Below, piece by piece: positions 39,167-48,040 of a stretch of 64,000 nucleotides of DNA. This stretch comes from Halocatena salina (GTDB lineage: Archaea > Halobacteriota > Halobacteria > Halobacteriales > Haloarculaceae), in assembly GCF_023115355.1 (NCBI RefSeq), contig NZ_CP096021.1:1-64000 (forward strand). The letters run 5' to 3'. Each line of letters starts with the position of its first letter. Positions within the stretch are counted from its first letter, which is position 1. The notes beneath the pieces were generated by a model. That model was given only the letters and a program-made list of their open reading frames with translations, did not search any database and was not told where the DNA came from. The position numbers and the translations under genes were made by a program.

Positions 39167-39250
39167 TCGCTAGTTCGACGTCGACATTGAGCGCGAGGCG
39201 GGCATCGTCCGCGAGAGTACGTGAGAGGGGCTGAGAGCTGCTGTCGAGCG
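39167..39250. repeat. Dispersed repeat shared with 42850-42934
   Basis: About 83 bases (TCGACATTGAGCGCGAGG...CGAGAGTACGTGAGAGG) almost identical to part of the recombinase remnant at 42848-43190. On the minus strand it reads LSRTLADDARLALNVDVE. Surrounding 38960-39430 contains no intact gene. Confidence 0.6.
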
Positions 39251-39433: not shown

Positions 39434-39937
39434 TCAGTCTTCGGCAGTGAGGCCGAAGTATCCAGCGAGTGTCCCAAAGCCAATGGCCCCAAGGAGTGAT
39501 CCCAGCCGCAGTCCGAACGCCTGCAAGGATGGCTTCGGTGTGAATCGATGAAGCTTCGTTTCATAGTAGTGCCCGTCTTTGTGGACGTAAACGGTTGTTG
39601 CGTCGCCCTTTGATCTAGTAGGAATGAGCGTGGCCCACGGCTCGGGCGCTTCGTCCAAGGGAACGGTTGGGCCGTTCTCTATCAGGATACCGTTCCAGGT
39701 GGCGTTGTAGCCACTCTCGAACAAGCGCTGGGCAGGTACCGAGAGGTTCTGGTAATGCACTGTTGGTACGTCTCCGACCTGTTTTTTCTCCGTCTCAATA
39801 GCGGACTGGTTAACAGGTTCCTGATGGACACCCATCTCTATGTGAGCGTCGTAGTTCGGGACCGGAGAGACGAGCGGGGCCCCAAACAGTGGGACAGCGA
39901 TGAGTACCGCAATAACGGCGCGGTGGCGACGGTTCAT
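39434..39937 (-). CDS. Membrane-anchored hypothetical protein of ABC operon
   Basis: A 167-aa protein with an N-terminal signal-anchor helix (residues 6-25, AVIAVLIAVPLFGAPLV), an external domain of about 100 residues, and a C-terminal helix (LGSLLGAIGFGTLAGYFGL). Its start overlaps the stop of the ABC permease by 4 bases, so it is the third gene of a coupled ATPase-permease-accessory unit. This three-gene set recurs in haloarchaea. The external domain could sense or bind the substrate. No family name. Confidence 0.7.
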   Translation of the reverse strand: MNRRHRAVIAVLIAVPLFGAPLVSPVPNYDAHIEMGVHQEPVNQSAIETEKKQVGDVPTVHYQNLSVPAQRLFESGYNATWNGILIENGPTVPLDEAPEPWATLIPTRSKGDATTVYVHKDGHYYETKLHRFTPKPSLQAFGLRLGSLLGAIGFGTLAGYFGLTAED

Positions 39938-40713
39938 GCCAGATCACCTCGCTGGAACCGGAGATATGCCACCCCGAGTGGCACAAGGAGCCAGCCAGCC
40001 AGAATCACGCCCCCAAACCATCCCTTCAGATAGAACGGGATCGTGTCAAGCGCAGTCGCGTCGATGTGAACGAACGCGAATTTCGGATTGAACCGCGTGA
40101 TGAGATAGTACCAGGGTGGAAGGGTTTGAGACGTGAACAGGAACGTTTTGATCACCGCGAGCACCGAATCCCAGACGAACGCAAACAGGAATGCAAGCCA
40201 CACTGCGCCCCACGTCGCCATGGTCGTAGAGCGAACCGCCGCTGAAAACGCGATCGCGACCGCAACGAAGACCACCCCGAGCACCAGTATTTTGCCGCCG
40301 AGGCGCGCATAGGCCATGACCGACGGCGACGTCTCAACCAGCACGGCGTAGTGGGCACCGACAACGGCGAACGCGATGCCCACTGTTACCGCGACGACGG
40401 CTGCTCGACCGAGTAGTTTGCCGATGACGACATCGCGGCGCGTGTGGGGCTGTGCGAGCAGGAACTGCAAACTGCCTGACTCGCGCTCACCCACGATCAC
40501 ATTGTACCCTAGGAGCGTTCCCACGACCGCGACGACGCTGGCTACGGCCCGGTACAGGTCAGCCACCACAGCGGGCTCGGCTGGAGTGACCATCGCAAAT
40601 TTGTAATACGTATAGAAGGCCAGAAACGCCGTGAACAGGCTCGTCACGAGCAACAGCAGCCGTGATCTGATGGCGTCTTGGAACTCTTTTTTCGCGACTA
40701 GTAGCGTACTCAT
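39934..40713 (-). CDS. ABC-2 type transporter permease
   Basis: A 259-aa permease with six hydrophobic helices. The N terminus LVAKKEFQDAIRSRLLLL is the cytoplasmic elbow helix typical of ABC-2/NosY-like permeases, followed by the intracellular loop VGERESGSLQFLLAQPHTRRDVVIGKLLGR. It exports a drug, lipid or peptide, or acts as a copper/nitrous-oxide-type exporter; substrate unknown. Overlaps the ATPase stop and the accessory start by 4 bases each. Confidence 0.88.
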   Translation of the reverse strand: MSTLLVAKKEFQDAIRSRLLLLVTSLFTAFLAFYTYYKFAMVTPAEPAVVADLYRAVASVVAVVGTLLGYNVIVGERESGSLQFLLAQPHTRRDVVIGKLLGRAAVVAVTVGIAFAVVGAHYAVLVETSPSVMAYARLGGKILVLGVVFVAVAIAFSAAVRSTTMATWGAVWLAFLFAFVWDSVLAVIKTFLFTSQTLPPWYYLITRFNPKFAFVHIDATALDTIPFYLKGWFGGVILAGWLLVPLGVAYLRFQRGDLA

Positions 40714-41663
40714 TGGATAGCTTCCTCGCTAGACCGATCGTGGGTGGTCGTCGATGGGGTACCGTCCTCGGTGTAGGCTATGAAGAGGTCTTCGAGTGAG
40801 GTTTTCGTCAGGTCGAAATCCTGAACCGATGCACCGGCTGCTTCGAGTTCGTTCAGGACGGTCGTTTTCGCTGCATCCACACAGTGTACCGTCACGGTCG
40901 TGCCGGTGGCACTAGCTGTCGAGACAGCATCCAGTGCACGGAGAGCCGGAAGTGCTGACTCACGCACCTGATCAACTTCGACGGTGAGAGTCGTCTCGGC
41001 TTCGACGGTCTCGCGTAAGCCGGCAATAGTGTCCTTAGCGATAAGTGCTCCATCCTGAAGGATGCCTACGCGGTCACAGACGGCCTCGACTTGTCCGAGG
41101 ATGTGACTCGAAAAGAAGATTGTCGCGCCCCGGTCGGCTTCGTCCCGGACGATTTCGCGCATCGTGTGGACGCCCTCTGGATCGAGTCCCGACGACGGCT
41201 CGTCGAGAATCAACAGGTCGGGCTGACCGACGAGGGCGGTCCCCAACATGAGCCGTTGGGCCATTCCTTTCGAGTACCTACCAGCCCTTCGGTCGACCGC
41301 GTCCTGGATGCCGACGCGCTCGGCAATCGCCTCCGGATCGTCGTTCGCTCCAGTCGAGTCGATGACGAACTGGAGGTGCTGGCGACCAGTCAGGCGATCG
41401 TACACATCGAATCCCTCGGGCAGGACGCCTGTGCGCTGACAGATAGCCTGTGATTCGGTTTGGGCGTCGTAGCCGAACACAGATATCTGTCCTTCGGTGG
41501 GTCGGATATAATCGAGCAAACAATTAATGACAGTCGATTTGCCCGCGCCGTTCGGACCGAGAAAGCCGAACACGGTGCCGTCCTCAACGACGAGATCGAG
41601 ATCGTCGACGGCAGTCACACCGCCGTACTGCTTCGTCACTCCTTTCAGTTCGATTGCAGTCAT
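40710..41663 (-). CDS. ABC transporter ATP-binding protein
   Basis: A 317-aa ATPase of the drug/ABC-2 type. Walker A GPNGAGKST is at 36-44, the signature YSKGMAQRL replaces the canonical LSGGQ (usual for this subfamily), Walker B is LLILDEPSSGLDP, and the H-loop is in FFSSHILGQVE. The C-terminal ~90 residues form an accessory domain. First gene of the three-gene operon. Its upstream region faces a divergent gene across an operator-like palindrome array (41806-41889). Confidence 0.92.
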   Translation of the reverse strand: MTAIELKGVTKQYGGVTAVDDLDLVVEDGTVFGFLGPNGAGKSTVINCLLDYIRPTEGQISVFGYDAQTESQAICQRTGVLPEGFDVYDRLTGRQHLQFVIDSTGANDDPEAIAERVGIQDAVDRRAGRYSKGMAQRLMLGTALVGQPDLLILDEPSSGLDPEGVHTMREIVRDEADRGATIFFSSHILGQVEAVCDRVGILQDGALIAKDTIAGLRETVEAETTLTVEVDQVRESALPALRALDAVSTASATGTTVTVHCVDAAKTTVLNELEAAGASVQDFDLTKTSLEDLFIAYTEDGTPSTTTHDRSSEEAIQ

Positions 41664-42847: not shown

Positions 42848-43190
42848 ATCGCTAGTTTCGACGTCGACATCGAGCGCGAGGCGGGCATCGTCCGCGAGAG
42901 TACGTGAGAGGTTCCGAGAGTTGATGCCAGCAGTCCAGACAACGCTGTACAGACATCGATGAACTCGGCGGCGACCGTCGTTCGGCGAGCCAACCGAGAG
43001 AGTTCTCGCTCATACATGTAATCGTACTGCCGTCTTTCACGGCTGCAAGCAACGCTTGGCAGTCTTCCCGATCCCATCGGAGCCTGAGCCGAACTCAGAG
43101 TAGACATCGAGATCGTCCACACCTGCGTCTTCGAGGCGTTCCCGACAGTCATACCACTGGTGAGAGACGGATCTTAGAGCGCGTCCGCTT
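42848..43190 (-). pseudogene. Remnant of a serine recombinase/resolvase
   Basis: Pieces of a serine recombinase appear in different minus-strand frames. CRERLEDAGVDDLDVYSEFGSGSDG resembles the RDELxxxxxxxGxxxDVYxDxGSG segment, LLAAVKDG follows, and MYERELSRLARRT resembles the HELSRLARS motif. No single frame is open across them and the N-terminal catalytic serine region is absent. A copy of its distal part occurs at 39167-39250. It is the relic of a mobile element or phage/plasmid resolution system. Confidence 0.45.
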
Positions 43191-43295: not shown

Positions 43296-43511
43296 TCAAT
43301 CTGGTATTCCCGCGAAGTAAAAGACAAGCGCGACCCCAGTCGCACTCCCTGCAGCGGTCAGTGCTGCGTTGAGGAAGGTGTTTCTCGGGAGCACGAGGCC
43401 GATGAGAACGCCAGCGCTGAATGCAATGACCCACGCCAAAAGCGCGTACTGAAGCGATGAGAGTTTCCGAACCCAGTTATCAATTCTGTTGTAGATTGGT
43501 TTGATCTGCAT
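43296..43511 (-). CDS. Small two-helix membrane protein beside the halocin-like gene
   Basis: A 71-aa protein with two helices (about residues 21-42 and 48-67) ending ALVFYFAGIPD, and a basic N-terminal amphipathic region (MQIKPIYNRIDNWVRKL). It lies 168 bases downstream of the halocin C8-like gene on the same strand. Halocin C8 clusters contain small membrane proteins suspected of export or immunity, so a link is likely but not shown. No ORF is seen in 43191-43295 or 43512-43679. Confidence 0.6.
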   Translation of the reverse strand: MQIKPIYNRIDNWVRKLSSLQYALLAWVIAFSAGVLIGLVLPRNTFLNAALTAAGSATGVALVFYFAGIPD

Positions 43512-43679
43512 AATGCCTAGTAACTGTTGTGAGGTTCACTCGAATATATAGTCGTGATATCTATCAGTTGTTTCTCCTGCCGCATTCGCTGGAAATGAAC
43601 CCGTTCGAAAACTTCTGGTGGCAGCAGAGAGATGATCGGCTTTTTATTACCCTATCGAATCTTCCTATCTGGATTAAGT

Positions 43680-44501
43680 TCACCAGAAACAATTATAACA
43701 CATACCGCATGACCCGATGCCAAGATTGGTGAAAAAGGCACACGCAATACAGCCACCTAATCCAACGCCGGTCATCGCTGCTGCACATGTCGAAACACAA
43801 AATCCTTTACTCACAACGGCTCCGGCACAGCTCGTACACGTATACACACAAGATCCCTCAGTTGATGCCACCGGTTCAACAGAGGCTGCTGAAAGGTCGC
43901 CACCAGTTGCATCAACATGGTATCGTTGGACATTGGCCGTGTCCTCGTTCACCGTTCCGGCAGCTACTTTGAATCCGCTACTGTTATGCGTATAAACCGC
44001 GGAGATGACGTCCTCTTCGACAGCGTGTTCTAACTGCTCTAGTTCGGTATCGGTTGCCATTCGAGCAATCGTAATCGACGATTCATCACTAACAAGAAAC
44101 GTGGTGCTTTCAGCTGGAATAGGTCTGAATTCGGCTGGAAGCTTCTGTCGGAGTTCCGGTGTCTGTGCGAGATTCAGTTCGAGTTTCGCTTCAACAGAAT
44201 TCCCGATTTCGGTATTGGTCAGTGTCCCGAGGTTAGTCTGGAACTCGGTGTGGGTGATCGTTCTTCCATCAAGTTCTCGTTGTTTCACGACAGCCTCCTC
44301 GACCGACAATGTGCCGACCACATCCTCAATTTGTTGGATATGTGTCTTATCGAGGATTTTCTCGATGTGAACATCGGATGGGTTCGGCTCCGCTGATACG
44401 CCTGCCGGAAGTCCAACCGCACCGACAACCCCTGCAGCACCGAGTTTCTTGAGCACGTTTCGTCTGTTTACAGTTCTATTATTATGTTCTGCACTCCTCA
44501 T
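43680..44501 (-). CDS. Halocin C8-like bacteriocin precursor
   Basis: A 273-aa preproprotein. The N-terminal Tat signal NRRNVLKKLGAAGVVGAVG is followed by a middle domain of about 170 residues. The C terminus is a 56-residue peptide from C218 with ten cysteines: CVYTC-TSC-GFC-STC-GGCIAC-GSC-GMCYNCFW. This matches the plan of halocin C8, in which one gene makes both immunity protein (N part) and a disulfide-rich peptide (C part). Cleavage probably falls before the STEGSC segment near residue 214. The spacing of cysteines differs from classical C8, so this is a variant. The 71-aa membrane protein follows. Confidence 0.8.
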   Translation of the reverse strand: MRSAEHNNRTVNRRNVLKKLGAAGVVGAVGLPAGVSAEPNPSDVHIEKILDKTHIQQIEDVVGTLSVEEAVVKQRELDGRTITHTEFQTNLGTLTNTEIGNSVEAKLELNLAQTPELRQKLPAEFRPIPAESTTFLVSDESSITIARMATDTELEQLEHAVEEDVISAVYTHNSSGFKVAAGTVNEDTANVQRYHVDATGGDLSAASVEPVASTEGSCVYTCTSCAGAVVSKGFCVSTCAAAMTGVGLGGCIACAFFTNLGIGSCGMCYNCFW

Positions 44502-44902
44502 ACATCAATATAAAAATTATTTTCTTATTAATGTATCGGTTTTAAATACATTATTATTGATGATTAATGGTCGGCTGCTGTAGCGGCTCTCGCGATCTAA
44601 CCTGCGGCAAGGAGTTGTCCCAGACGGTGTAATCGTCGATGAGACTGTCAAGCTCGACAATCTACCGCTTCAGCTTCTTTGAACTACCGCCTGAATTCAA
44701 CACCGCTAGTGATTCACTAGGATTCATCAATTCGTTATGGCTCAACAGTATCGGAGGTGAATATATTCACGCGAATTTCCACGGTGCATTCTCCCCTTTG
44801 CTCGCTCATGGTGCGATCAATCCACAGGCGAACCAGCGGCTCCCACGAACAGACGGAGAGCCACCAGTATGGAACGTTGATGCAAAGCGGAGCTGAACGC
44901 CG

Positions 44903-46797: not shown

Positions 46798-48040
46798 TAC
46801 TCGGCTCTGCACGTTCATAAACTCCCCTCAGAATGGGAGAAGAGGTGGTCGATCTCCTCCATCAGTCCGTCGAGATCATGGTCTGTCTGGTCGCGCACCC
46901 ACGAAAACATGTTGTAGATCGTCTCTTTGAGGCCGTGTTAGAGCTGCGCTCGATTCGGGACCAAGGCGAAGGAGGCTGTAGGTCAGCATCTGACGGTGCC
47001 AGTGGCGACTGGCACCGTCAGAATCACGCACCTCGAAGCCTCCAAGGCCGAGATCCTGCTTTGAGTCCTCGAAGAACGTCTCGATTCGCCACCTGTACGA
47101 ATAGCTCCGAATGAGATGGCCAGAGGGAGCGTCGATCTTGTTCGTTGCGAGGTACTTGACCGGGTTGTCTTCGTCCTCGTCAGTGACTTTCTCGGCGATT
47201 ACCAGTCGTACCTCACCTAACTTCGAGATCGGTAGCGTCTTCGTCCAAATCTTGTACGTTTCTTCGTTGATCTCTCGCTCTACTTTGTCGATGCGCTGGA
47301 AGAGCGCATCGACGCGCATCTCCTCGTTATCGAAGGTCACCTGCCGGTTGCTCCGTAGTGTCCGATCCAATCCTTGCCGTAGGATTCGACGTGCTTGATC
47401 AGGTCCGAGTCGTGGGCGAACCACGAGTCGAAGAGGTAGGTGTACCTGCGGACACCTACCTCTTCTTCCAGTTCTGTGACGATCTCTCGGGAGAGATCGT
47501 ACTTCGTCTCCTCGTCGTCCAGGTCTTCGTCGTCAGCTTTCTCGTACTGGCGAAATGTGAGTGGATAGGAGGTTTTGTCGTCGGTGTAGAATGCGTAGAC
47601 GAGGTCCTGTCCCCAGACGGGTTCTCCTTCGGTGTGATCGTAGAACTCTCCAGCACCGGGAAGTTCCTCCCGGTTTGCTGGAACACCGAGTCGTCGATGA
47701 CGATGTAACCGTCCTGTGACCAGCGTGTCTCGCCGTGTTTTTGCAACTCCTCTAATCGTTCGTGGTTGAGTTGATCTTTGTCCCAGTCGTACTCAGTGAG
47801 GAACTTGTTGAATGCTCGGTCGCCTTGGGCCGGAAGGACTTCACGTGCGATCCCGGTCACGGTCTTGCTGCTGGCCGCAGCAAGACCTATCACGTACGTT
47901 TTGGCGTGATGAGTCTGGTGATACGACAGCGAGTCGAACTCGTCCAGTGGATCGGTGCAGGACAGGAAATCCGTAATCGGAAGCATCGGCCGTCATTGCC
48001 GTCTACATCGCGTTCCGACTTAAACGTGCAGAGCCGAGTA
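46798..48040. mobile_element. IS4-type insertion sequence (degraded) with 18-bp terminal inverted repeats
   Basis: Both ends carry TACTCGGCTCTGCACGTT (46798-46815, and its complement at 48023-48040) as perfect inverted repeats, enclosing a 1.2-kb transposase gene. Flanking sequences show no clear target duplication by eye, consistent with age or later rearrangement. The transposase is multiply frameshifted, so the element is immobile on its own but could be mobilised in trans. Confidence 0.85.
46815..47986 (-). pseudogene. IS4-family DDE transposase, at least three frameshifts
   Basis: Reconstructed over frames: the N terminus MLPITDFLSC...AFNKFLTEYDWD and the first catalytic Asp motif GYIVIDDSV are open from 47986. 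At about 47660, GGGAGGAAC has lost an A (expected QQTGKELPGAGE). The middle frame carries FDSWFAHDSDLIKHVESYGKDW. A second lost base at about 47362 changes IGPLRSN. A third frame carries the IS4 signature YSYRWRIETFFEDSK (Y-R-E-K). A final shift near 46950 precedes ...NMFSWVRDQTDHDLDGLMEEIDHLF at the C terminus. The stop at 46815 lies at the inner edge of the left inverted repeat. Dead gene. Confidence 0.8.

Follow-up and report, generated by a model that had tools for sequence, protein, structure and literature searches.

The gene that runs along the reverse strand from position 44,501 of the window, by which we mean the whole 64,000-nucleotide stretch of Halocatena salina DNA analysed here, probably codes for a precursor that is exported by the Tat pathway and acts in the manner of pro-halocin C8, with a microhalocin at its C-terminal end and a middle domain that masks it. 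Such a precursor would leave the cell folded, through the Tat pathway, and its last 57 to 62 residues or so would form a hydrophobic helical hairpin held by five nested disulfides. Proteolysis outside the cell would, as we infer, free this C-terminal peptide as a microhalocin, whose antimicrobial activity may be directed at the membranes of related haloarchaea, and the acidic middle domain, composed of a helix-loop-helix and a beta part, could bind or mask the peptide as a folding aid, as a means of self-immunity, or as both. Computed support for this reading comes from the conserved architecture of the protein, from the family to which it belongs, from the paired loss of cysteines that points to nested disulfides, and from neighbouring genes held in common with halocin C8.

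Sequences are known for few archaeal peptide antibiotics, among which halocin C8 has been described best. The preliminary description of this locus had proposed a 273-residue product with a Tat signal, a long middle domain and a 56-residue C terminus containing ten cysteines, and the open reading frame, the match to the Tat-signal model TIGR01409 and the cysteine count all agree with it. The features are collected in Table 1. The gene is present in one copy in its own genome, where it sits on a 415-kb contig, and the AT-rich stretch upstream of it is, from its sequence, a possible promoter.

Table 1. Features of the precursor locus, in window coordinates
Feature	Position	Strand	Basis
Halocin-C8-like Tat precursor, 273 aa (Tat signal, middle domain, ten-cysteine C-terminal domain)	43680..44501	-	Open reading frame; architecture common to about 50 relatives
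Tat signal peptide, residues 1-37 (NRRNVLKKLG...GVSA)	44391..44501	-	TIGR01409 match; RR invariant in alignment A1 (24 members)
Acidic middle domain, residues 38-212: helix-loop-helix, then beta-rich domain	43866..44390	-	AlphaFold2; charge count; conserved residues
Predicted helix-loop-helix, residues 43-62	44316..44375	-	DSSP of AlphaFold2 models; best hhalign local match, non-significant
Ten-cysteine hydrophobic peptide domain, residues 216-273	43683..43856	-	Paired cysteine loss; four predicted helices; GRAVY about 1.0
TATA-like AT-rich stretch GTATTTAAAA, 39-48 nt 5' of the ATG	44540..44549	-	Read from sequence
Small membrane protein, 71 aa, 3' of the precursor gene	43296..43511	-	Member of a widespread haloarchaeal family

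The TIGR01409 match covers residues 11 to 33 and scores 22.1 bits against a cut-off of 16.7. Apart from this Tat signal, a search of the window protein against Pfam and NCBIfam returned nothing convincing, and the halocin C8 model TIGR04449 (halocin_C8_dom) gave no match at E values up to 1. The middle domain contains 31 aspartates and glutamates against 12 lysines and arginines, has G92, R147, T150 and E153 as its conserved residues, and is a candidate for the immunity or chaperone part of the precursor; the AlphaFold2 model has a pLDDT mostly between 87 and 96 over residues 41 to 180, with a mean of 79 for the whole model. The C-terminal 57 to 62 residues form a hydrophobic stretch with a GRAVY of about 1.0 and hardly any charge, which would correspond to a peptide of about 5.7 to 6.1 kDa if released near residue 216. 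The cysteines lie at positions 218, 222, 225, 235, 239, 251, 254, 265, 268 and 271, and the protein ends in Phe-Trp. With the 0.96% cysteine of the window's other long open reading frames as the base rate, the probability of at least ten cysteines in 56 residues is about 1.6e-10. Foldseek searches of the PDB with the AlphaFold2 models of the window protein and of a halocin C8 precursor gave no significant match, a profile search of PDB sequences gave weak matches alone, mostly to Tat signals, and neither PADLOC nor the plasmid collection that we searched yielded any match. A pattern scan of genome contigs for named relatives, with the window protein and with L079 as queries, produced no confirmed relative.

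A whole-genome search of haloarchaeal genomes found a best relative with 33% identity over the full length, and about 50 relatives, at 19 to 33% identity to the window protein, keep the three-part architecture. Full-length members have a Tat signal, a middle domain with the pattern LPxxYRxIP...FxRxATxxE, which includes the conserved G, R, T and E, and a C-terminal cysteine domain. A profile built from 24 members was run against 392 species of the order and detects the family in 47. When these 24 members were compared with Pfam and NCBIfam, Tat-signal models and isolated weak matches were found and no other family, and none of the 24 matched TIGR04449 at a threshold of 0.1; no conserved cleavage motif was identified in the family. 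This widespread family appears to be undescribed, and for want of a Pfam or NCBIfam model it escapes routine annotation. Several copies are present in some genomes, as in G277, where four family genes lie within 18 kb (locus L069, G277:C17:298000-316000) and differing cysteine-loss classes stand side by side among the four. Other copies are apparently truncated or frame-broken (L006 in G054, L095, L109 and G283:C2:46712-47364), which suggests turnover; L006 adjoins a transposase.

The pairing of the cysteines can be read from the way in which they are lost. The fullest members of the family have twelve, with a typical spacing of 3-2-(6-11)-2-3-(11-12)-2-4-(6-9)-2-2, and the cysteines of each member were assigned to these twelve positions by a dynamic programme that uses spacing only and is blind to pairs, the spacings being taken from the same family. 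We took in 47 well-mapped domains and excluded nine members with a poor fit or extra cysteines. All twelve cysteines are present in 13 of the 47, and the clear loss classes are {2,11} in thirteen domains, {6,7} in six, {4,9}, to which the window protein belongs, in five, {1,12} and {2,5,8,11} in three each, and {2,4,5,8,9,11} in one. Of the 10,395 perfect matchings, a single one fits all six clear loss classes once the class {2,6,7,10} and the truncated L072 are set aside, namely the fully nested one in which cysteine i pairs with 13-i (1-12, 2-11, 3-10, 4-9, 5-8 and 6-7). The pair 3-10 is deduced by elimination, since it is never lost. The class that was set aside (two domains) fits the nested scheme only if C10 is re-read as C11, two positions that the mapping cannot separate there; L072 is a protein whose genome match carries a stop flag, and it lacks {11,12}. 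The chance of the four two-cysteine loss classes all being nested is 2e-5. On a tree built without the cysteine domain, parsimony counts 4 changes for the pair 2/11, 4 for 6/7, 3 for 4/9, 1 for 1/12 and 1 for 5/8, to be read with the proviso that many nodes of this tree are weak and that its well-supported branches, taken alone, hold fewer independent pairs than a test would require.

Applied to the window protein, the nested scheme predicts the disulfides 218-271, 222-268, 225-265, 235-254 and 239-251. In the AlphaFold2 model, four helical segments (217-230, 236-242, 248-257 and 262-272) bear these cysteines on them or at their ends, and such a placement is, as far as the model goes, what a hairpin would need. 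The preliminary description had itself named a metal- or cluster-binding domain as the finding that would overturn it, and CxxC motifs together with a Tat signal would suit a domain of this kind in an exported redox protein, given that Tat signals often serve cofactor proteins. The paired loss argues against that outcome, as the cysteines disappear as nested pairs and not as quartets; furthermore, the domain is hydrophobic and predicted to be helical, and no Fe-S, zinc or redox family was matched besides the Tat-signal models. We therefore consider a metal or cluster site extremely improbable, and the peptide is most likely, judging from its sequence and that of its relatives, a helical hairpin laddered by disulfides.

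The resemblance to halocin C8 holds at one level and fails at another. The C8 precursor, ProC8, is exported through Tat, and its maturation yields HalI together with a peptide of 76 residues (review, PMC11509114). The C8 precursor family (TIGR04449, comprising ProC8 of Natrinema and its relatives) and the window protein have in common a Tat signal, a long middle domain and, at the C terminus, a hydrophobic domain that carries ten cysteines, so the C8-type architecture first proposed for this gene stands, and it is kept in the approximately 50 relatives; membership of the C8 family proper does not stand, there being no TIGR04449 match and hhalign probabilities of about 1% or less. These probabilities are 0.25% for the middle domains of the two families (42 against 46 sequences) and 1.1% for the cysteine domains, neither indicating significant homology. 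The spacing of the cysteines, suspected from the start to differ from that of classical C8, was compared and does differ, being 3-2-9-3-11-2-10-2-2 in the window protein, within the twelve-cysteine ground plan, and close to 2-7-3-7-13-7-8-8-5 in the commonest form of halocin C8. Of the 392 genomes, 58 have true C8-type genes; the window's own genome has none.

Loss of cysteines by the nested rule is also seen, for the most part, in the C8-type domains, 68 of which were examined. The losses there are {3,8}, {1,10} and {4,7}, the last confined to one subfamily in which the alignment is less certain, and they leave 3 of 945 matchings, the fully nested one among them. Among the exceptions, L168 is without a single cysteine and L178 is irregular. 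Eight-cysteine C8 members that lack {3,8} or {1,10} together are L161, L165, L171, L177, L180, L158, L170 and L179, and from these members part of the disulfide map of halocin C8 can be drawn. The AlphaFold2 model of one halocin C8 precursor (mean pLDDT 68) has, compared with that of the window protein, the same predicted order of elements at both ends: first a strand, a helix-loop-helix and beta strands, and at the C terminus four helices.

It is thus conceivable that the window protein is a true halocin C8 homologue that has diverged beyond sequence recognition and kept its fold, a reading that differs from ours in ancestry alone and not in mechanism. The common layout, in which both models predict a helix-loop-helix, beta strands and a C terminus of four helices, and the nested losses in both families speak for it, as does the best hhalign local match, which is not significant and falls on the helix-loop-helix in register. 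Considering the low hhalign probabilities for both domains and the differences in the spacing and number of the cysteines, we regard common ancestry as a tentative possibility, with the balance against it. We favour masking or immunity as the role of the middle domain because its predicted helix-loop-helix occupies the same place as the one predicted at the start of the halocin C8 middle domain. Taken as a whole, the gene most likely encodes a halocin C8-like precursor that acts like C8 and lies, by the tests made, outside the C8 sequence family.

A 71-residue membrane protein encoded on the same strand, 168 bp downstream, had been suggested as the partner of the precursor. Its position and orientation are as described, and two membrane spans can be recognised by eye, of which the hydropathy scan scored one alone at its threshold, but the idea of a specific partner found no support. 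Relatives of this small protein occur in 81 of 392 genomes, a paralogue with 83% identity lies on the same contig (G000:C3:138433-138645), and orthologues with 54 to 79% identity are found in four further genomes of the genus. None of these five copies has a family gene next to it; in one genome (G001), a Tat protein with a weak profile match alone lies about 2.5 kb from the orthologue. Because it is widespread and elsewhere does not stand beside family genes, the 71-residue protein is probably no dedicated partner. More generally, small membrane open reading frames are enriched immediately downstream of genes of the precursor family (14 of 53, as against 21 of 302; Fisher P 1e-4), in a count in which the window's own 71-residue frame goes uncounted at the cut-offs used. 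These small frames look dissimilar to one another, and we rejected them as a general immunity gene and kept the enrichment as a hint.

Two kinds of neighbouring gene connect the precursor family with halocin C8. A membrane protein with a CxxC motif (L069:9175-10176, reverse strand) is found near family genes in L069, L073, L081, L105 and L110, with six distances below 1.4 kb where about 0.17 would be expected (Poisson probability about 3e-8, with the distances counted as six), the expectation being a rough estimate that assumes three copies per genome. The same protein adjoins true C8 genes in L023, L182 and L014. Its family, which has an NRCEPC motif and is without any Pfam or NCBIfam match, is common in the order, being present in 214 of 243 haloarchaeal genomes; it could have a thiol or an immunity function. 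The second neighbour, a multi-span ABC-type permease of about 580 residues (L101:4604-6346, forward strand) with no Pfam match, stands beside two closely related family members and several C8 genes (L101, L084, L008, L009, L015, L020, L026 and L014) and is a candidate exporter or immunity transporter. Furthermore, a C8 gene and a precursor-family gene lie 8 to 9 kb apart in G162 and in G129. This proximity and the neighbour genes link the two families independently of any sequence similarity between them.

Many family members are without any recognised type of neighbour, and in the window, neither the CxxC membrane protein nor the permease was found near the precursor gene. An HtpX-type protease near four members was rejected as a linked gene; its proximity probably reflects chromosomal synteny, since another neighbour recurs at three of the four loci. 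We likewise set aside the window's ABC transporter (39934-41663), as such ATPases lie near a few members yet are abundant. A direct repeat of 63 bp, with 97% identity between its copies at 39167-39228 and 42849-42911, flanks the ABC transporter genes and resembles an insertion remnant, and two adjoining open reading frames on the reverse strand near the precursor gene (46876-47986) resemble a broken transposase.

In our opinion, the chances are about even that, alongside halocin C8, the precursor family forms a second large superfamily of microhalocins, both built on one scaffold, a hydrophobic helical hairpin with a fully nested disulfide ladder of up to six rungs, each gained or lost as a unit, and that halocin C8 has the same connectivity. 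With 47 against 58 of 392 species, and thresholds that differ, the family comes close to the halocin C8 domain in its spread, and the analysis of paired losses provides a specific disulfide map for it and a partial one for halocin C8.

Two known systems help to place the predicted peptide. HFX_0892 (HmHapP) of Haloferax mediterranei is, as predicted for our candidate, a secreted haloarchaeal precursor, and it becomes antagonistic after cleavage by a protease (PMC12893001). Its active part is N-terminal and alpha-helical, and the word "cysteine" is absent from the main text of that paper (PMC12893001). An N-terminal effector freed by an extracellular protease therefore has a precedent, and the predicted helix-loop-helix opens the mature window protein. 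Nevertheless, the cysteine domain is conserved throughout the family, in which it is structured and hydrophobic, and we consider it very unlikely that the active part is the N-terminal one.

The plant alpha-hairpinins (CX3C...CX3C, with pairs C1-C4 and C2-C3) are antiparallel helical hairpins with nested disulfides, as predicted for our peptide, and many are antimicrobial, but others are trypsin inhibitors (PMC10136942). The same nested principle could accordingly serve a secreted cysteine-rich protein with no antimicrobial role, in which the hairpin would be a protease inhibitor, an adhesin, a signalling peptide or a stability module of a cell-surface protein. We find such a function unlikely, given that the high divergence of the family, its patchy spread (47 of 392 species), its multi-copy clusters and the neighbours shared with C8 are better suited to a weapon. 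For the microhalocin that we propose, the alpha-hairpinins offer an analogy only, as they are plant proteins with other precursors and have two rungs, against the five or six of the haloarchaeal ladder.
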